A DNA stretch of 26,195 nucleotides from a virus. The notes under the pieces are model-generated. The model was not told the DNA's origin. It did no database searches and was given only the letters and a program-made list of their open reading frames with translations. The translations under genes and the position numbers were made by a program. Of this stretch, positions 4,291-16,316 are shown piece by piece. Each line of letters opens with the position of its first letter. Position 1 is the stretch's first letter. The DNA lies in IMG/VR virus record IMGVR_UViG_3300025880_000090, positions 1-26,195 of that record; one strand, 5' to 3'.

Positions 4291-4545
4291 CTATTTTGTT
4301 AAAGTAAATTCCCCAGTTTCTAGATCAATATTTCCTTCACCATACTTATCCTGGAGTTCTTTAGCTGTTTTATTAGATTTTTCTTGTAAATTAGCTAACC
4401 CATCTAGAATTTGGCTTCTTTGACCTTCTAATATTGCTTTTTGGATATCAACATTACCTAAATTAAAAGTAATTTGATTTTGTTCTTGTTGATAACCTCT
4501 AAGAACTTTTAGTTCTTCTTCTGATAACTTAATTGTTTTACTCAT
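4291..4545 (-). CDS. Small coiled-coil protein, paralogue of the 85-residue gene product at 9092-9349
   Basis: The 84-residue product is rich in Glu, Gln, Lys and Leu, with a heptad-like helical middle, and ends in LQDKYGEGNIDLETGEF. That C-terminal KYG-G-(I/V)DL signature and an N-terminal KL(S/T)EEE motif are shared with the product of 9092-9349, so the two are probably paralogues flanking the glycosyltransferase genes. Small coiled-coil proteins of this size in T4 include the fibre chaperone gp57A, but I see no sequence match and only note the analogy. It lies between the 293-residue glycosyltransferase and the sheath gene, and has its own promoter-like motif 13 bases upstream. Function unknown. 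Confidence 0.75.
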   Translation of the reverse strand: MSKTIKLSEEELKVLRGYQQEQNQITFNLGNVDIQKAILEGQRSQILDGLANLQEKSNKTAKELQDKYGEGNIDLETGEFTLTK

Positions 4546-4606: not shown

Positions 4607-5488
4607 TTATTCTAACCAATCATCTATTTGTTCTATAACCATATTTGGGGTTATTGAAGTATGACATTCAAATTGGCGTGGTGTATCTTTATGTTTGGGA
4701 CACCAATACCAATCTCCAAAATCAAAGTTATGCTCAATTCCTACCTTGTTAAAACACCCATGGCATACTGATTTATTGATAATTCGTTTATAATTAGGGA
4801 AATCTAAAGGAATTTCATGCCAGTCTTCTGTAAAATTAGATATCATTACTACTTTTTTTTCTAGAGCATGAGCTAACCAAGTTAAACCCGAGGATAGCCC
4901 TATAAAAAATTCAGCGTGTTGTATATAATTAACAGTGTCTTCTAAAGATACTTGTGTTTTGTTATTAGATTTTTTTGGTAACCCATTCCAATAAGGAGGA
5001 CAACCAAATAATTCATCACGTTCTACTACTACAGGGGTAAAACCTTTTTTTCTTAATATTCTACATAACTCAGTCCAATAAGGAGGAGTACCCTGTACAC
5101 TTTTCCCTTTAGGATGATTCCAATATTTTAATTGTGAAGTAGAATGTACACTTATAACAACATATTTTCCTTTTATAGGACGTTTTTTAGGGGTAATATT
5201 TAATTTAGGTTGAATGTAATTCCATTTTTTATAACCTAAATCTAAAGCAAACCCTTCTTGAATATTAGTTTTAAAATTATAATCTACTGGAATTATTTCC
5301 TCAAATCCTTCTGTTGTATTTACTAATTTTAAATTTGGATAAGACTCTTTAAATAAAAATTGAAACTTAGGATTTACCTTAACATAAACATCACAATTTT
5401 GATCTAACCTATATTGATTTATATAGGGAATAGCTATGATTGTATCCCCTAAGGAATTTGATAATATATTAACTAAAACTTTTCTCAT
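4607..5488 (-). CDS. Autotransporter-heptosyltransferase-like (Aah/TibC type) GT-B glycosyltransferase
   Basis: The 293-residue protein has a GT9/ADP-heptose transferase-like layout. The N-terminal LVNILSNSLGDTIIAIPYIN resembles the 'GDTIAWxPxV' segment of Aah/TibC enzymes. Middle strands include GKYVVISVHSTSQLKYWNHP, and the nucleotide-sugar site region is FFIGLSSGLTWLAHALEKKV. Near the C-terminus four cysteines (C242, C245, C263, C275; C-x2-C-x17-C-x11-C) surround FDFGDWYWCP. From the literature, TibC/Aah enzymes carry such a Cys quartet binding iron and transfer heptose to serines of autotransporter adhesins. The start codon overlaps the stop of the 757-residue gene (ATGA), implying coupled translation. 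Unlike its partner it lacks the N-terminal beta domain of the family. The donor sugar and target are unknown; phage fibres are the inferred target. Confidence 0.75.
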   Translation of the reverse strand: MRKVLVNILSNSLGDTIIAIPYINQYRLDQNCDVYVKVNPKFQFLFKESYPNLKLVNTTEGFEEIIPVDYNFKTNIQEGFALDLGYKKWNYIQPKLNITPKKRPIKGKYVVISVHSTSQLKYWNHPKGKSVQGTPPYWTELCRILRKKGFTPVVVERDELFGCPPYWNGLPKKSNNKTQVSLEDTVNYIQHAEFFIGLSSGLTWLAHALEKKVVMISNFTEDWHEIPLDFPNYKRIINKSVCHGCFNKVGIEHNFDFGDWYWCPKHKDTPRQFECHTSITPNMVIEQIDDWLE

Positions 5489-7758
5489 ATATTACTTGAA
5501 TTGAATACTTGAGTAGGGGTAATAGATTTTTGACAAATATGCTGTTTATTTGTTCCTTTCCAAATAGGACACCAATCCCAATCCCCAGGATCAAATGTAA
5601 AATTAGGATTAGTCCAACAAGGAATACATGCATTATCATTCATTACACGAGTAATATGAGAAGTAAATTCATGATCTCTTTCACTAAACCCATTAATCAT
5701 AATTGTATGTTTTTTTAAAGCCCAATTTAACCACGATAAACCTGATCCTAGCCCAATAAATTTATCAGCATAAGTTAAATAAGTAGCTACTACATCTAAT
5801 GGTCTACCTTGAATATTAGTTGTACCTGGGATAGTATAAGGGGTTGAGGAAAGTATAACTACTTGGTAATTTTTATTTTTAAACATTTTGGATAATTCAA
5901 CCCAATTATCATAAGTCCATTCCTTACACCCCGAAGTTGATTGAGGACCAAATACTACATATTTTCCTTGAATAGGTTTTTCACCAATGTTAAAATTAAC
6001 CCCATAATTAAGTTCTTTATATTCTAACCCTAAAATATCAGTTGATGTTTGTATCAAAGGAATTGTATTTGGTTGGGTTGGGTGATCATCAAAATTTTTA
6101 AAATTACCATCTGAATTTTTAAACCATCCTATTTTATATTGAGCATAAGCAGAACAAGATTCTCCGGGTTTAATAAATTTAATATTTTTATATTCTGGAA
6201 GGTTTTTAAACCAATTATTATGAAAGGTACTAACTATAACTTTACATTGATGTTTTTTAGCAAATTCTATAACTTGGGGGGTCCATGCTATTGTATCACC
6301 AATTGATTTTGAATCTAAAGTTATTTTTACGTTTTTATCTTTAAGGTCTAATTTATGAATTACTTTACCATTTAATTTAATAACCCAAGGAATAAAATAA
6401 GATTTATTACATTTAGTCCACATATTATTAGTAATAACAGAAGAATGAACTATTTTATTTGTTTCCCCATTTATAAATTCTACTTTATACTTTTCAAAAT
6501 TAGACCCTTTGATTTCTATTTTAGGACCTTCATTAAAACTAATTTCAATGTTATTAGGAGGTATATTATTTACTAAATAGTCTATTTCTTTTTTAGCTAT
6601 TTGAGCAGCATTTTCCCAAGTAAACTTTTTTCTTATTTCAACCGATTCTTTTATTGCTTGTTTTTTATGTTGTTTATAATTAACATAAGCATCCCTCATT
6701 ACCCTTTTTAAATCATTAAAATCAGGTGAATAAAATTCCCCAGGTAAGTCAGATTGAGAGAATGTACTATATTCTCCCCCTATAGCAGGAATAGTTCCTT
6801 TAATTTTTACGGGCAATCCTTTACCTTCTGCAAATTCTAATTGAGCACTACAATTTGAATAAATAGAAGGGGTACCACAAGCCATTGCCTCAATTAAAGG
6901 TAAATTCCATCCCTCAGCACGAGCACAAGATAAAAATACATGACCTTTTTGTAAGTACTTAATATATTCTTCTCTTGTTGGAAAATGTTTTATTTTTAAT
7001 CTTGGATCAATTAAACCATAATGTTTAAGTCTTTCTTCAGTAGATTCAAAGTCATCCTTAGCCATATGGTTGTCTATAGATAATATTAAATCTACAGGTT
7101 CATCTTTATCAAATTCTTCTAAAAAAGACTCAATAACCTCTTTAGTAGATTTTCTATAATCCCACCGACCAAACATTGTAAATTTAAATCTTCCATCGTC
7201 ATATTCCGGAAGTGTAGCCTTTTTATTAGGGTGAAAAATAGTAGAATCTACTGCTTCAGGAACAACCTTTACTTTATCTGAAGGAATTCCTTGTTCAATA
7301 GTACAGTCTCTTTGCCATTTAGAAGCAACCCAAACTTGATCAAATGTAGATAATTGATTAAAAAATGTTTTAGGTTGACGAGTTGTTTCCCATACATTAT
7401 AGGCTATTTTTGGGCCTTGATAATCTTGATAAAACACATGGTGGTTTGTTTCACACAAAACTAGATTGACATTATGATCAAAATCGTTAGGATATTTAGT
7501 ATAAATATCTTTATGAATTAAATTATTATCTTCCCACAAATATTGTGAAGTAAGTAGTTTTTTATCTAACCCATCAAAGTATTCTTCTCCATTATGGGGT
7601 TCATCTTTATAACCATCCCATGATTTACCTACTGTAAAATTTCTTATTTTTAAGTTATAAAGATTAGAAAGTTCTCTATAAAATGCTCTTGTATGATTAG
7701 CATAACCTGTAGTTCCTACATAACTACCATGTGCAAATATTTTAGGTGTTTTTATCAT
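5485..7758 (-). CDS. Bifunctional glycosyltransferase: GT4 domain fused to Aah/TibC-type O-glycosyltransferase domain
   Basis: The 757-residue protein has two complete-looking enzymes. Residues 1-395 are a GT4-type retaining GT-B transferase: FTMFGRWDYRKSTKEVIESF, then SCARAEGWNLPLIEAMACGTP with the E-x7-E pair E282/E290. Residues 403-757 match the autotransporter heptosyltransferase architecture: a beta domain with VEFINGETNKIVHSSVITNN and a following MWTK, then SIGDTIAWTPQVIEFAKKH (about 485-503), CKVIVSTFHNNWF, a PLIQTSTDILGLEY segment, IGLGSGLSWLNWAL, and the Cys quartet C711, C714, C730, C742 around FDPGDWDWCP. Known relatives (Aah, TibC) O-glycosylate serine repeats in the cytoplasm with ADP-heptose. 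One polypeptide could therefore attach the first sugar and extend it; that coupling is inference. It is followed at once by the 293-residue paralogue (4-base overlap). Confidence 0.82.
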   Translation of the reverse strand: MIKTPKIFAHGSYVGTTGYANHTRAFYRELSNLYNLKIRNFTVGKSWDGYKDEPHNGEEYFDGLDKKLLTSQYLWEDNNLIHKDIYTKYPNDFDHNVNLVLCETNHHVFYQDYQGPKIAYNVWETTRQPKTFFNQLSTFDQVWVASKWQRDCTIEQGIPSDKVKVVPEAVDSTIFHPNKKATLPEYDDGRFKFTMFGRWDYRKSTKEVIESFLEEFDKDEPVDLILSIDNHMAKDDFESTEERLKHYGLIDPRLKIKHFPTREEYIKYLQKGHVFLSCARAEGWNLPLIEAMACGTPSIYSNCSAQLEFAEGKGLPVKIKGTIPAIGGEYSTFSQSDLPGEFYSPDFNDLKRVMRDAYVNYKQHKKQAIKESVEIRKKFTWENAAQIAKKEIDYLVNNIPPNNIEISFNEGPKIEIKGSNFEKYKVEFINGETNKIVHSSVITNNMWTKCNKSYFIPWVIKLNGKVIHKLDLKDKNVKITLDSKSIGDTIAWTPQVIEFAKKHQCKVIVSTFHNNWFKNLPEYKNIKFIKPGESCSAYAQYKIGWFKNSDGNFKNFDDHPTQPNTIPLIQTSTDILGLEYKELNYGVNFNIGEKPIQGKYVVFGPQSTSGCKEWTYDNWVELSKMFKNKNYQVVILSSTPYTIPGTTNIQGRPLDVVATYLTYADKFIGLGSGLSWLNWALKKHTIMINGFSERDHEFTSHITRVMNDNACIPCWTNPNFTFDPGDWDWCPIWKGTNKQHICQKSITPTQVFNSSNI

Positions 7759-7772
7759 TTTATTTTAAATTT

Positions 7773-7800
7773 TACACGTTTTTACCGTTATATACACGTT
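7773..7800 (-). promoter_or_regulatory. Leader element with AACG-GTAAAAACGTG, similar to that of the hub gene
   Basis: The coding strand of this leader reads ACGTGTATATAACGGTAAAA then ACGTG. The TAAAAACGT core is shared with the leader of the hub gene (939-953), and ACGTG occurs twice flanking it. It replaces the usual AATATTTATAATAAAA element, which is absent here. It may be a different promoter class or an operator. Confidence 0.3.
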
Positions 7801-7809
7801 AAAATATTT

Positions 7810-8682
7810 TTAATTATTAAGTGATGTTATAATTTTATTTACATCAAATACTTCATTTAAATTATTGTAAGGTATAGAGTGGATATCTTGTGCTAAATTA
7901 AAAGGTTGGTAAACAGAATTTTGAATTTGGGGTTTTTTTGTAAAGAGATTAGCTTGAATATTATCATGTAATTTATACCCAAACACTGTTGGTTTAGTAG
8001 TTACCCAACATACAGTAGATTTCACATTCATGGCTGCTGCTAAATGTTGAGAAAATGAATCTATTAATAAACGTTTAGAAGACATTTGAAGTAAAATAGC
8101 AATACTTCTAAAACCATCTAAAGCTTGCATTGTGTCAGGATAGGTATATTGGTCTTTTCTTTTAATATGAATAATTGCATAATCATTTTTATAATGATCA
8201 ATAACATTTAATACAGTAGGTTCTGGTATATCTCTTGTCCATGAATATTGAAAACCTTGACCTTGAGGTCCTCCATTTGTTTGTATGGCTAAAATAGGTT
8301 TATCTAATTTATAAAAAGGGGAAAAATAATCTAGCTCGGGTTGTGTTAAATAGATTTTAGGTTGTTCATTATTATAATGTAACCCATAAATTTTACACCA
8401 AGTTTTAAATAAATGTTCTTTTTCTGTTAAAAATGAAGTGTGACGGTAGGGGTCTTCAATAAAAAGTTTGCAATCTTGATCCTTAATGTATTTAAGATAA
8501 GCCCCATTCATTTGTTCAGGTCTATATATTTTACTAACCTGGGGGTTATTTAAAAATACATCAGGGTAAGCAGTTACAACTATTAAATTAGAATTTTTAT
8601 ATCGTTTCTTTATAACCTGTACCATGGCTGTTGCCATAATAGATTTACCTAAACCCCCATCTATCTGGAATATTATGTTCAT
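7810..8682 (-). CDS. GT9/heptosyltransferase-like GT-B protein
   Basis: The 290-residue protein begins FQIDGGLGKSIMATAMVQVI, the Gly-rich loop and helix seen at the start of GT9 (ADP-heptose:LPS heptosyltransferase) proteins, followed by LIVVTAYPDVFLNNPQVSKI. The C-terminal half has ILAIQTNGG, DYAIIHIKRKDQ and RLLIDSFSQHLAAAMNVKST, corresponding to the GT9 'D(T/S)..mHlA.a....v.l' donor-binding region. It lacks the Cys quartet of the two Aah/TibC-like proteins downstream. Its role is probably to add a sugar to a nascent glycan, or it may be a substrate-handling homologue; which one cannot be read from sequence. It lies 40 bases after a small DUF-type gene and 52 bases before the GT4 fusion. 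Confidence 0.65.
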   Translation of the reverse strand: MNIIFQIDGGLGKSIMATAMVQVIKKRYKNSNLIVVTAYPDVFLNNPQVSKIYRPEQMNGAYLKYIKDQDCKLFIEDPYRHTSFLTEKEHLFKTWCKIYGLHYNNEQPKIYLTQPELDYFSPFYKLDKPILAIQTNGGPQGQGFQYSWTRDIPEPTVLNVIDHYKNDYAIIHIKRKDQYTYPDTMQALDGFRSIAILLQMSSKRLLIDSFSQHLAAAMNVKSTVCWVTTKPTVFGYKLHDNIQANLFTKKPQIQNSVYQPFNLAQDIHSIPYNNLNEVFDVNKIITSLNN

Positions 8683-8721
8683 AACTTTGTTTTTAAATTA
8701 AATAACTATTTTATATTTTGA

Positions 8722-9033
8722 TTACCAAGGAACACCATCATCCGTGGTTTTACTTTGTTCATAATTAATTTGTTCTGCAACCGAAGATGAATTAGATGTT
8801 TCTATAGCTAAATAATCTATGCTTCCTGTTACCCAAGTAAGCACTATTTCTTCTGTTAAATCATCATAAGATACAAAATCTGGGTCTGAAGGGGATTTAG
8901 ATGGGAGAGAGTAATCTCCTACCATTCTTTTCATAGATCCAGAGTATGTAGTATTACAAGTATAAGAAGCTGTTGTAACTAAACCATCGCTTAAATTTCT
9001 TTCTAAATTAGTTATTGACCAAGTATGTTGCAT
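8722..9033 (-). CDS. Conserved small phage protein of the type seen in marine cyanophages
   Basis: The 103-residue product starts HTWSITNLERNLSDGLVTTA and ends with a Ser-rich helix followed by DDGVPW. From memory, a family of about 100-residue proteins in marine T4-like phages opens with 'W.I.nLER....G.V..a.w' and ends 'G(L/V)PW'; I recognise it as that family but its function is undescribed. The middle segment FVSYDDLTEEIVLTWV is also typical. Such genes usually sit among structural or fibre genes, suggesting a small virion or assembly protein. It has its own promoter-like motif 17 bases upstream, which separates it from the glycosyltransferase genes on each side. Confidence 0.75.
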   Translation of the reverse strand: MQHTWSITNLERNLSDGLVTTASYTCNTTYSGSMKRMVGDYSLPSKSPSDPDFVSYDDLTEEIVLTWVTGSIDYLAIETSNSSSVAEQINYEQSKTTDDGVPW

Positions 9034-9050
9034 GTTGAAATATTTTATTT

Positions 9051-9062
9051 ATTATAAATATA
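9051..9062 (-). promoter_or_regulatory. Late-promoter-like motif before the 103-residue gene
   Basis: The coding strand reads TATATTTATAATAAATAAAA, ending 17 bases before the ATG. It is a full match to the recurrent element. Confidence 0.5.
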
Positions 9063-9091
9063 CAAAGGTTTATTTACTTATCCTAATAAAT

Positions 9092-9349
9092 TTAAGAATT
9101 TTTAATGTATAAACTATTTATTAAATCAACTTGACCCCTTCCATACTTATTAAACATATCTTGTTGAAATAAATTTTCTTTGGTATTTAATTCTATTATA
9201 TTAGTATAAACTTCTTCTAATTGACGTTCATTTTCTAATTCAGCTAATTTAATTTCTCCTAATTGTACTAAATATTCTAATTTTTTATTATGTAAAGAAT
9301 TTCCAATATTAAATTCTTCTTCTGTTAATTTTTGATTATCCATTACCAT
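9092..9349 (-). CDS. Small coiled-coil protein, paralogue of the gene product at 4291-4545
   Basis: The 85-residue product is predicted to be almost entirely helical and charged, with KLTEEEFN near the N-terminus and FNKYGRGQVDL near the C-terminus. Both are shared with the 84-residue product encoded at 4291-4545 (KLSEEE, DKYGEGNIDL). Two ATG codons (9349 and 9343) are possible starts; the first is listed. It begins immediately after the stop of the 409-residue glycosyltransferase and is probably co-translated with it. Function unknown; an accessory or chaperone role for the neighbouring enzymes or fibres is speculation. Confidence 0.7.
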   Translation of the reverse strand: MVMDNQKLTEEEFNIGNSLHNKKLEYLVQLGEIKLAELENERQLEEVYTNIIELNTKENLFQQDMFNKYGRGQVDLINSLYIKNS

Positions 9350-9350
9350 T

Positions 9351-10580
9351 TTATATTTTTGTATTTAATAAGTTTTTTAATTTAGAACTATCTAATGTAG
9401 CCACTAAATTTATATCATTTTTACTATTTCTATAAGCATAAATTTTATATTCACTTTTATCACTAATATAAGAATATATTTCTTGGAAAGTAAGTAATAT
9501 ATTAAACTCATGTTTAATTTTAAAATCTAAGGAATATTTATTTACTGTATCAACTATACTTTTTTTTACTAATTTAATATTACTAAAGTTTGTTAGTGTT
9601 TTTAATTTATTTTTATGGTTTGGTTTAATTAGTTCAGTAAATACCGTTATAATAATATAATCGTATCCTGATATTAATTTTGGGTAATTTATATAAGGGT
9701 TAAAATTTATAAAAAGAATTTTTTTAGGTTTACCAGAATTTTTAATTTTTTCTAAATATTCTTCTGATAACCCAACTGGGTCTCCTTTATCATCTAAATG
9801 TTTACAAACTATAGAGGGTACTATACTTATTTTTTTTCCTAATAGTCTTATTCTATAACATATTTTAGAATCTGGGGGAGCGTCAGTATCAAAATAATCT
9901 CGATTTTCAGTTAAAGGGAGAATTTGTTTTGCATCATTTACTGAAAGTAGCATGCATCCATTTCCTACAAATCCTATATCTGTATAATCTGTGTAAGTTA
10001 AATCGTCTATAGAGGTTTCTATCCATTTATCTTTTCTTACACTTGCTACTATACGTCTTTTGGTTTCAGGTTTTTCTGTAACTATAGTAGGTCCTAACCA
10101 TTCTTTATTAAAATAAATCCCGCTTGCTATGCCACAATTTTCTATTTTATAGTAGGTATTAAAAAGATCTTCTAAAGCAAAATAAGGCGGTATAGTATCA
10201 TCATCTACAAAATGTATAAAATCTCCATCTTTAACTGATTGTAATCCTATATTGATATTTTGTAAAGCAGAATCATGTTTAACAAGCGTGTCTTTTTTGC
10301 GGGTATATTGTTCCCATTCTTCCCAATTTAAATCAGGGTGACACCTTCTATTACCTTCTATGAAACTTATTTTATTGTATTTGTCAGATAGTTTTAATTC
10401 TTTAATTTTACTTTTGAGTTGTTTTGTAAAATTACTATCACATCCTAAAACTAGATTTAAATTAAGCTGGTTTATTTGGTTAGGGGTAGTTAAATTACAG
10501 AAGTAATCTAAAAGTTTATCTATAGAAAATTCTCTTCCTATAATAATAGATACAATAGTACAACTAACTTTATTTTTCAT
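9351..10580 (-). CDS. GT-A fold glycosyltransferase with DDD motif and an extra C-terminal domain
   Basis: The 409-residue protein opens with CTIVSIIIGREFSIDKLLDY, typical of a GT2-like transferase, and has a metal-binding DxD-type motif in DGDFIHFVDDDTIPP (D126-D128). The acceptor-side residues follow in TDIGFVGNGCMLL and DYFDTDAPPDSKICYRIRLL, and the catalytic region closes with KHLDDKG. This is an inverting GT-A architecture for adding a sugar to a protein or glycan. Residues from about 285 to 409 form a separate, very Lys/Asn/Ile-rich domain starting KPKKILFINFNPYIN that I do not recognise. It is the first glycosyltransferase of the island in transcription order and precedes the small coiled-coil gene by one base. 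Donor and acceptor are unknown. Confidence 0.72.
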   Translation of the reverse strand: MKNKVSCTIVSIIIGREFSIDKLLDYFCNLTTPNQINQLNLNLVLGCDSNFTKQLKSKIKELKLSDKYNKISFIEGNRRCHPDLNWEEWEQYTRKKDTLVKHDSALQNINIGLQSVKDGDFIHFVDDDTIPPYFALEDLFNTYYKIENCGIASGIYFNKEWLGPTIVTEKPETKRRIVASVRKDKWIETSIDDLTYTDYTDIGFVGNGCMLLSVNDAKQILPLTENRDYFDTDAPPDSKICYRIRLLGKKISIVPSIVCKHLDDKGDPVGLSEEYLEKIKNSGKPKKILFINFNPYINYPKLISGYDYIIITVFTELIKPNHKNKLKTLTNFSNIKLVKKSIVDTVNKYSLDFKIKHEFNILLTFQEIYSYISDKSEYKIYAYRNSKNDINLVATLDSSKLKNLLNTKI

Positions 10581-10633: not shown

Positions 10634-11320
10634 TTAAGATATTCCGGTTACTTTACCAACGTTTGCTGTAGCTACTCCTGTTATTTCTCCTATGTTAGCA
10701 GATACTACCCCTGTTACGGTATTTCCATATCCAGTTACTGCAGTATAAGTTAAGGTTGGCTTTAAAGTTAAAGAGTTAAGGTGGTATTGTAGCGGTATTT
10801 GAAATCCTGATGAAGGTTGAGAATTAGAATAGTCGTAAGTATGGTCTATTACTGCTAAAATTAATTCAGAATTGGTATTAGCATCCGATATCGCAGTACT
10901 ATTTAATGCTATAGTATTTTGAGCATCTCCAGTGTTACTAAAGGTGGTGAACTCAGCTGAGTAAGCAGTGCTTAAATCTGCAGCTCCAAAGTCACCAACT
11001 GCAATATTAGAACCATCAGGTGCAGTAGATTTTACAATAATAATATCTCTGGTTGCGGAAGGGGATTTTGTATATAAATCTAAGTCTAAATCTGTAATTG
11101 TTCCGCTAACTGAGGAAAGGTCAAAATGTAAATAACCTCTTCTAATCCTAAATGTATTACCTCTTGATCCAACATATTCAGCATTAATTAGAGCACCCGA
11201 TTGATATACAAAAGCAGTTGTTGCCGTAGATGCATTCCTTGTATCGCTCCAAGTATATATAGTAGAATCTAAAGATATAAAAAGTTCTCCTGATGTATTT
11301 TCTGGGGTTACTGATGGCAT
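10634..11320 (-). CDS. Fibre-type virion protein with beta-sandwich domain and ANxGxxTG C-terminal repeats
   Basis: The 228-residue protein contains a beta-rich domain (about 30-195) with FRIRRGYLHFDLSSV followed by TDLDLDLYTKS and a long C-terminal strand segment SLTLKPTLTYT. This resembles the DNRLRE-like or carbohydrate-binding-like jelly rolls found in secreted and phage fibre proteins; the assignment is by pattern only. The last 30 residues are a short repeat, TGVVSANIGEITGVATANVG then KVTGIS. From memory, similar (V/I)xGVxxANIxKVxG repeats are common in phage fibre and adhesin proteins. It follows the methyltransferase gene by four bases and is likely part of the same receptor-binding apparatus. 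Confidence 0.6.
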   Translation of the reverse strand: MPSVTPENTSGELFISLDSTIYTWSDTRNASTATTAFVYQSGALINAEYVGSRGNTFRIRRGYLHFDLSSVSGTITDLDLDLYTKSPSATRDIIIVKSTAPDGSNIAVGDFGAADLSTAYSAEFTTFSNTGDAQNTIALNSTAISDANTNSELILAVIDHTYDYSNSQPSSGFQIPLQYHLNSLTLKPTLTYTAVTGYGNTVTGVVSANIGEITGVATANVGKVTGIS

Positions 11321-11324
11321 AATT

Positions 11325-11984
11325 TTACTGTCTTATATACATTGGCATGTAATACTCGTTTGTATTATGATATTCATTTTTTGGGATTTGAATTTTATAA
11401 TCACTCAATCTGATTAATTCATAGCTAACTCCCCTTCTATTTTTAGTAGTTTCGTCTGGAGTGAAATTTTCCATTGGATTCCACCAAGTCATTCTACCTC
11501 CTACCTTTAAAAATTTAGTAATGTAGTTTTTAAATTCGTGTAACTTTGTATCTTGATAAGTATCTATAAAAATAGCATCAAATTCCTGTAAACCTGATTT
11601 TTCAAAAGATTTTCTAAATTCATCAAACCAGTTCTTACCTCCTAAGATAGTAACTCTATTTTTAAGTCTATTTTTATCATAATATGTATTACGCTCTCCG
11701 GCCCAAGCATTTGCTCTTTCAGTAATAGCTAGGTGTGTTTCTATAATTGTATGCTGTACCGGTTGATAGTTTTGTATAAATCCGGCTGATATACCCATAC
11801 CAAAACCTAATTCTAACACGCTTTCTACTTTACCTCCATTAGTAACCCATTCGGCAGATCTTCTCATAATTGGGGTTTCCCAATCCATCATTACGTTAAA
11901 CTCTTTACCGTCTTTAGAGTACTTAATTTTATCACTTTCGAAAGTAAGAGATCTTTCTTTATATCCTGTATCAAATCCTGCCAT
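11325..11984 (-). CDS. Class I SAM methyltransferase resembling guanidinoacetate/arginine N-methyltransferases (GAMT/RMT2)
   Basis: The 219-residue protein has the full class I core: SAM-binding loop VLELGFGMGISAGF (about 55-69), the acidic end of the second strand TIIETH (E82), FDAIFIDTYQD (136-145) and LKVGGRMTWWNP (159-170). More telling, the segment DWETPIMRRSA (E36) before motif I and the IDTY motif (D141) match the 'RWETPYM' and 'YDTY' motifs of GAMT and fungal RMT2. In GAMT these supply the Glu and Asp that hold the guanidino group (Glu45 and Asp134 in mammals, from memory). So an N-methyltransferase acting on an arginine-like or guanidino group is plausible. It is packed 10 bases after the 891-residue fibre gene and 4 bases before another fibre gene, suggesting virion modification; that link is inferred. 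Confidence 0.78.
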   Translation of the reverse strand: MAGFDTGYKERSLTFESDKIKYSKDGKEFNVMMDWETPIMRRSAEWVTNGGKVESVLELGFGMGISAGFIQNYQPVQHTIIETHLAITERANAWAGERNTYYDKNRLKNRVTILGGKNWFDEFRKSFEKSGLQEFDAIFIDTYQDTKLHEFKNYITKFLKVGGRMTWWNPMENFTPDETTKNRRGVSYELIRLSDYKIQIPKNEYHNTNEYYMPMYIRQ

Positions 11985-11994
11985 AAAGTTATTT

Positions 11995-14670
11995 TTAAGC
12001 TATTTCTACCCAAGCTCCGTCTGGGTTAAAGTAAATTACTTCAGTAGAATCATCAATTAAATGTCCTACTACTCTTACAATATCTCCTGTACCTGAAGGA
12101 GCTCCTGTTGTAATACCTCCTGCTGTAGTTGATAAATATAGAGGTGATCCTATAGTTCCTCCTGTAAGACCGAATACTGATGTGAATCTTGCAAATCCTC
12201 TTATAAGCATACCTACAGTATTTGAAAGTCCAGTTCCTGCAGCTATTGCAAGCATATTAGTTGCTGAACTAGCAGCATCAGCATCAGCTAATGACCAACT
12301 AGATGTACCTGATACTGGTTCAAGTAAATAATAAACGTTTCCTGCTGTTACATTTGAAGAACCTACATATATTAATTCACCTGCAGTATTAGCAGTTCCT
12401 AAATATGGTGTTTGATTATTATGTGCATGGAAGGCAAAATTATTTACAAAAGTAGTACAATTTGATAAAGCTGTAATGCTGGTACCAATAATAAAGGAAC
12501 AAGCTTTACTATTTATATTATTATTATTTCCTGATATAATACCACTCATACAACCATTATTTGTGTTAGAACACCCACCACCTATAAATCCTTGGCCTGA
12601 TGAAACAGTGTTTGTGCATCCTCCTGCTATTACACCTCCAGTAGCAGAGACGGTATTTTCACCACCCCCTGCAATAACTGCTTGGGAAACTCCACTAGAA
12701 ATTGTATTATTATTTCCTCCACCAATAGGAGAGGATGTTCCTTGAGTATCATTACTAAATCCTCCTCCAACAGAACTACAAGCACCTCTAGCACAGTTAA
12801 TATAACCACCAGCTACTATACCATAGTTATTAGAAACATAATTATCACGTCCTCCACCAATATGACCATACTGTCCATAGGAACAGTTATTATACCCCCC
12901 GGCTGTTGTACTATATGTATTTGATGAATCATTAGAGTAACCACCACCAACAGTTGAATAAGAACCTCTTGCACAATTTAAACGACCTCCTCCAACAATA
13001 CCATAATCATTTTGAACAGAGTTACTACACCCACCAGCAATAGTCCCCCAACAATCATTTGTACCAATTTTATTAAAATAACCTCCTCCAATAGTACTAC
13101 AATGAGAACTAGCACAAATTTGATTTGTACTTCCACCTCCTATAAATCCTCTATTTGAGCATATTGAATTAGACTGACCACCTACAATAGTTGAATAGGT
13201 ACCATTTGATATACAGTTACTTTCACCTCCAACAATAGATGCGCAGCCACTACTATCTATGCAATTAGATGCACCCCCACCTACAGTATCAAAATTAGCT
13301 CCTTTTGCATAATTACCTTTACCTCCTACAATTACATCAAACTCTCCAAAAAGTACGTTGTTAGATCCCCCACCAATAAATTGTGCGTCATTGAAAGTAC
13401 AATTACATCTACCCCCTCCTATAAATACAGCATTTGAGTCAGTACAGTTAAAATTCTGGATACCCCCAACAATAATATTAGCACAAGCAGTAGTTAGTGT
13501 AGGTGTTATACAGTTTTGTAAACCACCTCCTATAAAGTCAAAGGCTTCTCCTCCTTTTGAGAAATTACATTTACCCCCTACTATTACACTAGTAGAAGTA
13601 AATACTTTATTTTCGCTACCCCCACCTATAAATCCCCTAATAGCACAGGATTCATTTGTAGTACCACTTACTAAACCTGCAAATTCGGCATCAACTATAT
13701 TTTCACATCCTGCACCTAGAAAACTATCAGCTGCTGATGATGTATTTAGACTACCTGCTCCAATAAAAGACCTTAAACCATTACTTTTATTACAAGTTCC
13801 ACCTGCAATTGTTGAATAACTACTTCCAACAATATGACAATTTGTACATCCTAGACAAACAGTTCTATTTTGGAAATTAGCTTTTATAGTTGCATTGGAT
13901 GGATCAACTCCAGCAAATGCCATTTCACAATTAGCTACTTGTCCTCCAATGATATAATCATTATCAGTCAGTACAGCTAATTCACCTCCAAAATAATCAT
14001 CTCCAATAATAATTTTACCAAAGTTATTATTAACACCAAAAGTTGTCTGGTCTGTACAGAAATAAGCACCTTGAGTTGATACGTTAAAATTAGAGGTTTG
14101 TGAACAAAATGTTGCAGTAGTAACTGTAACATTAGCTTCTACATTACCACCCCCTGCACCATCATAGGTAATTACACCATTATTTGTAGTTCCTGTTAAA
14201 GATAATAATCCACTTGTTCCTGAAGAACCTGATGATCCTGAAGTTCCTGATGAACCTGAAGTACCTGAAGAACCACTAGAACCTGATGAACCTGAAGTAC
14301 CTGATGAACCTGATGAACCTGAAGTACCTGATGAACCTGATGAACCTGAAGTACCTGATGAACCTGATGATCCTGAAGAACCACTAGAACCTGAAGTTCC
14401 TGATGAACCTGAAGTACCTGAAGAACCACTAGAACCTGATGAACCTGATGAACCTGAAGTACCTGATGATCCTGAAGTGCCACTTGAACCACTTGAACCT
14501 GATGATCCACTTGAACCAGAGGATGCTGCATTTTCTCTTGTACCTACTTCTCCGGCACTATTAATTACAAGTGTTGTGTTTTCAGATCCTTGGGTAGAAA
14601 GACCTGTTAATTTAAGTTCATTTAACTCAGCGTTACTTCCACTAAGTACTACTTTTTTCCAATTTGGCAT
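11995..14670 (-). CDS. Long collagen-like fibre with Cys-rich GGGxxN repeat shaft
   Basis: This 891-residue fibre has four parts. (1) Residues 1-50, MPNWKKVVLSGSNAEL through GTRENAAS, a putative virion-anchor module shared with the 372-residue fibre upstream. (2) Residues 51-155, strict Gly-X-Y tract of GSS and GTS triplets without proline. (3) About 270-740, some 25-30 imperfect repeats of 'F/IVGGG..N', probably a trimeric beta-helix or YadA-head-like shaft, unusually rich in Cys (NC, GCSN, CAN patterns). (4) C-terminal domain starting GELIYVGSSNVTAGNVYYLL and ending EVIYFNPDGAWVEIA, likely a tip or trimerisation domain. It is the first of three tightly spaced genes (fibre, methyltransferase, fibre). 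The Ser/Thr tract is a candidate target for the O-glycosyltransferases downstream. Confidence 0.85.
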   Translation of the reverse strand: MPNWKKVVLSGSNAELNELKLTGLSTQGSENTTLVINSAGEVGTRENAASSGSSGSSGSSGSSGTSGSSGTSGSSGSSGSSGSSGTSGSSGTSGSSGSSGSSGSSGTSGSSGSSGTSGSSGSSGTSGSSGSSGSSGTSGSSGTSGSSGSSGTSGLLSLTGTTNNGVITYDGAGGGNVEANVTVTTATFCSQTSNFNVSTQGAYFCTDQTTFGVNNNFGKIIIGDDYFGGELAVLTDNDYIIGGQVANCEMAFAGVDPSNATIKANFQNRTVCLGCTNCHIVGSSYSTIAGGTCNKSNGLRSFIGAGSLNTSSAADSFLGAGCENIVDAEFAGLVSGTTNESCAIRGFIGGGSENKVFTSTSVIVGGKCNFSKGGEAFDFIGGGLQNCITPTLTTACANIIVGGIQNFNCTDSNAVFIGGGRCNCTFNDAQFIGGGSNNVLFGEFDVIVGGKGNYAKGANFDTVGGGASNCIDSSGCASIVGGESNCISNGTYSTIVGGQSNSICSNRGFIGGGSTNQICASSHCSTIGGGYFNKIGTNDCWGTIAGGCSNSVQNDYGIVGGGRLNCARGSYSTVGGGYSNDSSNTYSTTAGGYNNCSYGQYGHIGGGRDNYVSNNYGIVAGGYINCARGACSSVGGGFSNDTQGTSSPIGGGNNNTISSGVSQAVIAGGGENTVSATGGVIAGGCTNTVSSGQGFIGGGCSNTNNGCMSGIISGNNNNINSKACSFIIGTSITALSNCTTFVNNFAFHAHNNQTPYLGTANTAGELIYVGSSNVTAGNVYYLLEPVSGTSSWSLADADAASSATNMLAIAAGTGLSNTVGMLIRGFARFTSVFGLTGGTIGSPLYLSTTAGGITTGAPSGTGDIVRVVGHLIDDSTEVIYFNPDGAWVEIA
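14212..14525 (-). repeat. Gly-Ser-Ser/Gly-Thr-Ser coding minisatellite in the long fibre
   Basis: This is a DNA tract of 9-base units (coding GSS or GTS triplets with TCA, TCT, ACT and GGT/GGA codons). It is repetitive enough that other reading frames stay open as shadows. Such tracts change length by slippage or recombination. A second, longer tract with the same units lies in the fibre gene upstream (15704-16166). Confidence 0.85.
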
Positions 14671-14950: not shown

Positions 14951-15157
14951 TTATTTTTTAATTGATTCTTGGTATTTTTCTTGAAGTTTTAAAGTAGTAT
15001 TATAACATATTTCTACATATTCCCCTTTAAATAAACTATTTTTAATGGTTACAAGTAAAAATTCTATTTGTTTTGGGGTTAGTTCGATATTAAGTGTAGG
15101 AGGATTAGACATATTGTCTTTTCCTCCTACAACTACATTTTTAGTTTTTAATGCCAT
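14951..15157 (-). CDS. Small protein of unknown function downstream of the 372-residue fibre
   Basis: The start is taken at the ATG at 15157, giving 68 residues beginning MALKTKNVVVGGKDNMSN; an upstream TTG at 15184 would add nine residues but is a weaker start. A second ATG inside (MSNPPTLNIELTPKQIEFLL) is also plausible because that segment looks like the start of many small phage proteins. The C-terminal half is helical and charged (LQEKYQESIKK). Position between the two fibre genes suggests an accessory role in fibre production; function unknown. Confidence 0.6.
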   Translation of the reverse strand: MALKTKNVVVGGKDNMSNPPTLNIELTPKQIEFLLVTIKNSLFKGEYVEICYNTTLKLQEKYQESIKK

Positions 15158-15197
15158 AAACCTTTTTAATATTTTAGAAAACAATTTTATTTAAATT

Positions 15198-16316
15198 TTA
15201 CGAATAAATATAAATATCTTCGTTACTTGCTACGTATATGTTTCCTTCTTTATCATATTTGGATGGAGCATCATCTGGGTCATTGGTAGTTCCTACAACT
15301 ACTGCTGCCATAAATGCATCTGGAGTGTATGAAGATAAAGTAGCATCAAATGAGCTAGTTACACCCCATCTTCCAGTAGACAAACCATCATAAGCAAAGG
15401 CATCACCAAAATCTTGGTCAGTTTGTTGTATAACAATACCACCATCACCAACAGTTGTTGAACCTGATCCAAGTAATATAAATCTATCTTTAACTAATAA
15501 ATTTTCAGTATTTCTAAATGAAGCAGTACCATCAACAAATAAATCATTTGATATAATAACATCACCTGTTACTGTTAATAATCCAGTATTTGATTCTGAT
15601 CCACCATCACTAACAAATGTTAATCTTTGTTCAGCATTAGCACTAGTACCATCTATATCAGTCAGTATTCTATTGTTTCCTGAGTTTTGTACATTAATTA
15701 CACCACTAGTACCACTTGATCCTGATGAACCACTTGATCCTGATGAACCACTTGAACCACTAGTTCCTGATGAACCTGAAGTTCCACTTGAACCGCTTGA
15801 ACCTGATGAACCAGATGTACCTGATGATCCTGAAGAACCTGATGAACCAGATGTACCTGATGATCCTGAATTTCCTGATGTACCTGATGAACCTGAAGAA
15901 CCGCTTGATCCTGAAGAACCGCTTGATCCTGAAGTTCCTGATGAACCAGAAGTACCAGATGAACCATCATTACCTGAGGTACCGCTTGATCCTGAAGTTC
16001 CTGATGAACCAGAAGAGCCACTTGAACCTGAAGAACCAGATGTACCACTTGATCCTGAGACTCCAGACGTTCCTGAAGAACCACTTGAACCAGAAGAACC
16101 TGAAGTTCCAGATGATCCTGATGAACCACTTGAACCAGAAGAACCAGATGTACCAGAAGAACCAGAACTAGCTGCATTTTCTCTTGTACCTATAACCCCT
16201 GAAGAATCAATAACTAAGGTTGTTGTTTCTGAAGGATTTGAGCTTAAATTTGTAAGGGATAAATTTGCTAATTCAGCCGCTGACCCACTAACAATTACTT
16301 TTTTCCAATTTGCCAT
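15198..16316 (-). CDS. Collagen-like fibre protein, paralogue of the long fibre
   Basis: The 372-residue product has an N-terminal module (MANWKKVIVSGSAAEL through GTRENAAS, residues 1-50) about two-thirds identical to that of the 891-residue fibre, so both probably attach to the same virion site. Residues 51-205 are an almost pure Gly-Ser-Ser/Gly-Thr-Ser tract with rare Val, Asn-Asp and Asn interruptions. The C-terminal 165 residues (RLTFVSDGG, GDVIISNDLFVDGTASFRN, DRFILLGSGSTTVGDGGIVI, RWGVTSSFDATL) form a beta-rich domain resembling those at the tips of fibre proteins in marine myoviruses. Its Ser/Thr density makes it the best candidate substrate for the O-glycosyltransferases encoded in this island. 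It has a promoter-like motif 40 bases upstream. Confidence 0.82.
   Translation of the reverse strand: MANWKKVIVSGSAAELANLSLTNLSSNPSETTTLVIDSSGVIGTRENAASSGSSGTSGSSGSSGSSGSSGTSGSSGSSGSSGTSGVSGSSGTSGSSGSSGSSGSSGTSGSSGTSGNDGSSGTSGSSGTSGSSGSSGSSGSSGSSGTSGNSGSSGTSGSSGSSGSSGTSGSSGSSGSSGTSGSSGTSGSSGSSGSSGSSGSSGTSGVINVQNSGNNRILTDIDGTSANAEQRLTFVSDGGSESNTGLLTVTGDVIISNDLFVDGTASFRNTENLLVKDRFILLGSGSTTVGDGGIVIQQTDQDFGDAFAYDGLSTGRWGVTSSFDATLSSYTPDAFMAAVVVGTTNDPDDAPSKYDKEGNIYVASNEDIYIYS
15704..16166 (-). repeat. Gly-Ser-Ser/Gly-Thr-Ser coding minisatellite in the 372-residue fibre
   Basis: This tract of about 460 bases is made of 9-base units encoding GSS and GTS, longer than the tract in the paralogue (14212-14525). 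Together with a shared 21-base block just upstream (14525-14545 and 16171-16191 are identical), it offers a substrate for exchange between the two fibre genes. Confidence 0.85.

Follow-up and report, generated by a model that had tools for sequence, protein, structure and literature searches.

In guanidinoacetate methyltransferase (GAMT), the Glu residue of the WETP motif (Glu45) binds the guanidino group. A GAMT-like core, with motifs such as VMMxWE and GFGMGI, is also present in RMT2, where an ankyrin-type N-terminal extension lies ahead of the catalytic domain. Asp134 of GAMT serves as the proton acceptor in a concerted methyl transfer (PMC12471008), and yeast Rmt2 (RMT2), a type IV protein arginine methyltransferase (PRMT), methylates the delta nitrogen of Arg67 in Rpl12 (PMC3365026), an example of a GAMT-like fold that works on an arginine within a protein.

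In marine viruses, genes annotated as GAMT (K00542) have been catalogued among the auxiliary metabolic genes (AMGs) of the global ocean, where creatine production under low oxygen was proposed for them (PMC11360552). The part of that catalogue available here treats them as creatine metabolism and describes no fibre cassette; they have the enzyme annotation and the marine viral source in common with the gene studied here. In addition, methylated Lys and Arg residues, including tail-fibre arginines, were first reported in 2026 in the virions of phages of the flavobacterium Cellulophaga; most of this methylation is dimethyl-Lys, and it was observed in phages without a known methyltransferase (PMC13288928).

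Family and active site of the methyltransferase

The window, that is, the whole 26,195-nucleotide stretch of viral DNA that was analysed, contains a methyltransferase gene with the following features.

11325 to 11984, minus strand: GAMT-like SAM-dependent methyltransferase, 219 aa (open reading frame list, PDB sequence and fold matches, relatives)
11877 to 11879, minus strand: codon of Glu36 (WETP), matching the WETP Glu of GAMT in the alignment (66 of 66 viral relatives)
11562 to 11564, minus strand: codon of Asp141 (DTY), aligned with the proton acceptor Asp134 of GAMT (65 of 66 viral relatives)

The reading frame starts with ATG, and is separated by 10 bases from the fibre gene that precedes it (ending at 11995) and by 4 bases from the adhesin gene that follows it (starting at 11320). 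These coordinates and spacings are exactly those given by an earlier reading made from the letters of the window (hereafter, the sequence-only reading), which had also proposed a GAMT/RMT2-like guanidino methyltransferase.

A phmmer search against all PDB sequences returned four distinct matches, all of them GAMT (best, 3orh, E = 8e-8), and a profile built from the viral proteins alone matched GAMT at 3e-22, with the next family at 8e-6. In the fold search with the AlphaFold2 model (pLDDT 94.4), five GAMT chains ranked first (3.4e-13 to 4e-12, TM up to 0.70) and led the best non-GAMT match (3.8e-8) by about four orders of magnitude. The protein had remained unannotated because Pfam, NCBIfam, and PHROGs hold no good model for it. 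PRMT types I–III gave no Pfam or NCBIfam match, and one PRMT chain was reached in a profile search, at no better than E = 0.08. No family or fold match to an FkbM or sugar O-methyltransferase was obtained from Pfam, NCBIfam, or the fold search; the first-ranking structures were GAMT chains and not enzymes of those types. The phage protein is certainly a member of the GAMT superfamily, which has the guanidino N-methyltransferase fold, and the proposal of a GAMT-type enzyme is borne out by the sequence profile, the predicted fold, and the near-invariant Glu/Asp pair.

The phage protein shares with GAMT (PDB 3orh, 1xcj, and 1khh) a Rossmann-type SAM core with LExGFGM, the WETP Glu, and the DTY Asp, and the two are similar in size and fold (TM 0.70). 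The SAM-binding core LExGFGMxI and the acidic residue after strand 2 are both present. As the sequence-only reading had suggested, Glu36 and Asp141 pair with the WETP Glu and the YDTYP Asp of human and rat GAMT, at a level far beyond chance. In contrast, the overall identity is about 24%, the phage protein is shorter after the DTY motif, and TWWN stands where GAMT has TYCNLTS. The phage protein also differs from GAMT in belonging to a viral clade apart from the sampled cellular homologues, in lying within a fibre cassette, and in having no amidinotransferase partner that could be found. It would share the GAMT-like core with RMT2; unlike RMT2, it is a bare catalytic domain of 219 residues without an N-terminal extension, a single domain from about residue 13. 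The best viral structural match was A0A8D9CBY1 of an uncultured marine phage in BFVD (TM 0.77–0.85, 30% identity), which belongs to the same viral family and bears the automatic UniProt name 'putative guanidinoacetate methyltransferase'.

An IMG/VR search with a small alignment identified 506 stretches encoding relatives of the methyltransferase. When 50,697 named phages were searched by tblastn, only one record was found, LR745206, a 634-kb uncultured phage. Homologous loci numbered 42 in bacterial and archaeal genomes, and one of these, on a Flavobacteriales MAG contig (L083), itself carries the viral cassette described below.

Conservation was evaluated in 66 distinct viral proteins, including that of the window. 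Glu36 was retained in all 66 and Asp141 in 65, so that the pair was not lost among the homologues. M32, W35, M40, L57, E58, G60, G62, M63, and G64 were invariant, as were H78, I80, E82, H84, W119, T166, N169, N203, Y205, Y211, and P214. The full SAM core that had been claimed is thus present, with L57, E58, G60, G62, M63, G64, and E82 kept in all 66 proteins. The dN/dS values of close pairs (0.08–0.31) indicate that the gene is under purifying selection. The exception at Asp141 is a relative 81% identical to the protein of the window (L004, 8001–8666), in which the catalytic Asp is replaced by Asn (D141N; FINTYQD); this may be an inactive member.

In a maximum-likelihood tree, taken as unrooted, a branch with 100/97 support splits all of the viral methyltransferase sequences from the cellular ones. 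The cellular homologue that groups nearest to the viral clade is from a rumen Deltaproteobacteria MAG (L084, 7992–8573), and has DVF in place of DTY; its surroundings look chromosomal, with a dapA-like gene nearby. GAMT-like domains homologous to the phage enzyme, but built into bacterial peptide synthetases, were also observed: those in Pseudoduganella, Massilia, and an acidobacterium (L112, L115, and L117) lie within NRPS proteins with condensation and AMP-binding domains, and L117 adds PKS, radical SAM, and B12-binding domains.

The fibre-tip cassette

The genes on the two sides of the methyltransferase contain the following features.

11995 to 14670, minus strand: long tail fibre, 891 aa, with collagen-like GSS/GTS repeats (Pfam Collagen 2e-14; PHROG tail fibre)
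11998 to 12357, minus strand: C-terminal tip domain of this fibre (..VRVVGHLID..IYFNPDGAWVEIA), conserved ahead of the methyltransferase at almost every locus
10634 to 11320, minus strand: predicted adhesin, 228 aa, CBM96/CBM-like beta-sandwich (follows the methyltransferase in 81 of 82 loci)
11156 to 11170, minus strand: exposed hairpin loop GSRGN of the adhesin (Arg53; residues 51–55), a candidate methylation site
10637 to 10732, minus strand: C-terminal tail of the adhesin with a repeated ANIGxVxGV motif, common to downstream proteins of other folds (low pLDDT)

The gene order, namely a long fibre that ends in a conserved tip domain, the methyltransferase, and a CBM96-like protein of about 228 residues (longer in some loci), was recovered almost without exception in loci selected solely for their similarity to the methyltransferase. 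The counts refer to the best-matching 82 loci of about 500 IMG/VR stretches, near-duplicates included. The tip domain comprises about 120 residues with the signature VR[IV][IV]GY...[IM][YW]FNPD.[TS][FW][VI]E[IV], and in three relatives it weakly matched PF09956 (Phage_cement_2). It was present upstream in 78 of the 80 methyltransferase loci that have upstream sequence, of which 74 were detected by HMM and four, with long low-complexity fibres, by eye (L004, L032, L033, and L083); this count leaves out L010, for which the HMM match is circular, and the two loci without the domain are L010 and L053. The gap between the fibre and methyltransferase genes ranges from -4 to 28 bases, and the downstream starts often overlap, suggesting that the cassette is translationally coupled. 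With about 80 loci carrying the fibre cassette, the link to virion fibres is stronger than the sequence of the window could have shown by itself.

The claim that fibres flank the gene on both sides held for the upstream neighbor, a true fibre, and failed for the downstream one, a protein of the CBM96/CBM fold. For the model of the latter (pLDDT 88), Foldseek matched a chondroitin-sulfate-binding CBM (8wab, 2e-6) and an alginate-binding CBM96 (7vbo, 3e-5). Pfam CBM96 matched weakly, at 4.5e-4, under the curated cut-off, and a sequence profile of the family gave antibody noise only when searched against the PDB. The fold matches suggest that the downstream protein is most likely a carbohydrate-binding tail adhesin with an acidic-polysaccharide-binding fold, and it is better named a predicted adhesin than a fibre. 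In CBM96, a structural homologue, a single R36E change abolishes alginate binding (PMC9971899), which offers a functional precedent for the arginine loop of the adhesin. At four loci (L143, L148, L158, and L178), the protein behind the fibre tip has only the C-terminal ANIGKVxGV tail in common with the CBM-like partner and a different N-terminal domain; the tail has the appearance of a modular tag by which tip proteins dock.

To avoid circularity, a second search was seeded with the fibre tip domain instead of the methyltransferase. Of the 63 distinct loci in which sequence follows the tip, 12 had the methyltransferase followed by the CBM-like gene, 11 had a CBM-like-type gene directly, and 40 had other genes; a methyltransferase without the CBM-like gene was found in none of the 63. 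The CBM-like partner was therefore present in 12 of 12 tip loci with the methyltransferase versus 11 of 51 without it (Fisher 5e-7, uncorrected for shared ancestry). In four of the 11 methyltransferase-free partners, the C-terminal tail is the same and the N-terminal domain is different. The methyltransferase is therefore an optional insert between the tip and the CBM-like partner.

For the LR745206 megaphage, which is of a different size class, the methyltransferase is 32–36% identical and lies 15 bases behind fibre genes, and no CBM-like gene follows. Among cultured phages, the closest one that carries the tip domain is Flavobacterium phage immuto (Immutovirus), in which the tail fibre gp47 has the same tip domain as the fibre of the window, and the fibre, sheath, tube, and baseplate genes are in a similar order. 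Unlike in the window, neither a methyltransferase nor a CBM-like partner follows the immuto fibre. A Gp23-type capsid gene was found in 16 of 50 carrier records, the megaphage among them, and in the window.

Candidate acceptors and alternative functions

The setting of the gene in the cassette points to a substrate within the virion. The reading we put forward, with somewhat less than even confidence, is that the protein is an active guanidino methyltransferase devoted to the host-recognition end of the virion, with an arginine of the tip proteins as the likeliest acceptor. The methyltransferase would be produced at the same time as the fibre tip and the CBM-like protein. In its active site, the guanidinium group would be held by Glu36 and Asp141; SAM would donate its methyl group to the internal (delta) nitrogen and Asp141 would accept the proton, as in GAMT. 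An arginine of the neighboring tip proteins would then become delta-N-methylarginine, with the GRG loop exposed on the CBM-like adhesin as the leading candidate site and a fibre arginine as the next; the modification might change how the adhesin reads acidic surface polysaccharide, or its survival outside the cell. In the sequence-only interpretation, the guanidino methyltransferase and its association with fibres stand, and its 'arginine methyltransferase dedicated to virion proteins' is retained here as a suggestion.

The loop reads GSRGN in the window, whereas most relatives have GRGG, GRGS, or GRGA. The Gly-Arg-Gly loop is tentatively regarded as the leading target. An R-G loop was observed in 71 of 72 partners that occur with the methyltransferase versus 11 of 23 that occur without it. 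In the closest contrast, L221 and L222, which have the enzyme, carry GRGGG, whereas the loop is deleted in L206–L216, which lack it. However, the enzyme-less partners L226, L228, and L229 retain GRGGG and the contrast is mostly that of one clade, so that the loop is a lead and not proof, and was not accepted as a decisive co-evolving site; the association, being largely that of one clade, may reflect descent. The arginine of the fibre-tip signature VR[IV][IV]GY was rejected as a methyltransferase-specific target, since it is kept equally with and without the gene, including in gp47 of immuto.

Further points speak against a virion-protein substrate: GAMT and its kin act on small molecules too, the megaphage copy has no CBM-like partner, and the virion methylation of the Cellulophaga phages was mostly dimethyl-Lys in phages without a known methyltransferase. 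In an auxiliary metabolic role, the protein would be a genuine GAMT, making creatine from guanidinoacetate in infected cells. The closest characterised family is indeed GAMT, all of the guanidino-binding residues are kept, and viral GAMT (K00542) is reported in the ocean catalogue as the most virus-enriched AMG (85.4-fold), with creatine production proposed (PMC11360552). Conversely, a fixed slot between the fibre tip and the CBM-like adhesin in about 80 loci is atypical for a metabolic gene, and the viral clade is apart from the cellular one. An amidinotransferase (PF02274) was found in none of the 50 carrier records, which are mostly fragments (IMG/VR records up to 171 kb and the 634-kb megaphage), whereas the controls matched; no phage-borne source of guanidinoacetate was thus found in these phage records, and the host may supply it. 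In addition, the GAMT-like domains inside NRPS proteins indicate that the fold is employed outside creatine synthesis as well. Creatine synthesis is accordingly considered unlikely.

A recruitment of the fold as a fibre-tip assembly helper or structural part, with catalysis secondary or lost, is given a still smaller chance. The gene directly follows that of the fibre, in many loci with translational coupling (gaps of -4 to 28), a position typical of fibre chaperones, and the catalytic Asp is lost in one member (D141N of L004). However, the near-perfect conservation of the catalytic and SAM-site residues argues for catalysis, and tip-domain fibres often occur without the methyltransferase, which is therefore not needed for folding them.

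Tailoring of a virion glycan, in which a sugar or another small molecule attached to the fibre would be methylated at a guanidino or amino group, appears more doubtful again. Four glycosyltransferase-like genes lie in the fibre region of the window, and the Ser/Thr-rich collagen-like repeats of the fibre could be glycosylated. Relatives of these glycosyltransferases, however, were found near the methyltransferase in only 2–5 of 83 loci (flanks of 8 kb or less), and the enzyme has no sugar-methyltransferase family or fold match; a pathway involving the glycosyltransferases of the window was rejected, as most carrier loci do not share those genes. The least probable reading is methylation of a host protein (a receptor or a defence factor), late in infection or by virion-carried enzyme: phage infection is reported to alter host protein methylation (PMC13288928), but the tight linkage with structural genes and one adhesin type points to a virion partner, and no host target is suggested by the present data.

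We return to the virion-arginine reading. Its more specific form, a phage-dedicated delta-N arginine methyltransferase acting on the phage's own adhesin or tip, would be the first phage-encoded enzyme to methylate virion proteins and would make the published creatine AMG a part of the host-recognition machinery; this form is held with lower confidence than the general one. The novelty claimed by the sequence-only reading does not extend to viral GAMT, which was already known (the creatine AMG of PMC11360552; UniProt A0A8D9CBY1). In the literature, no phage arginine methyltransferase of fibres was found, and neither the fibre-tip/CBM cassette nor its breadth nor the implied virion substrate was found described. 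If correct, the reading would provide an enzyme for the methylation of virion proteins just reported in marine Bacteroidota phages (PMC13288928), and covalent arginine methylation would join the ways in which phages may tune host recognition. Given the position of the genes within a fibre-tip cassette, and as no guanidinoacetate source was found in the carrier records, it would also suggest that the most virus-enriched AMG of the ocean catalogue (GAMT, PMC11360552) may be assigned to the wrong process.

Other genes in the window

The four glycosyltransferase-like genes in the fibre region (4607–10580) comprise a GT9-like gene, a GT4+GT9 fusion, a second GT9-like gene, and a GT2-like gene. The GT9 protein at 4607–5488 and the C-terminal half of the fusion at 5485–7758 share 29% identity. 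A possible role of these genes is fibre glycosylation.

Two small paralogous helical proteins of 84 and 85 residues (26% identity, E 7e-5) are encoded at 4291–4545 and 9092–9349. They have no clear family, and their relatives lie close to the methyltransferase gene in 42 and 31 of 83 loci, respectively. A further small protein is encoded at 14951–15184.

Collagen-like Gly-Ser-Ser/Thr coding repeats are located at 14219–14518 and 15702–16167, in two fibre genes. The strands opposite these repeats also contain long open frames, which are mechanical ORFs.
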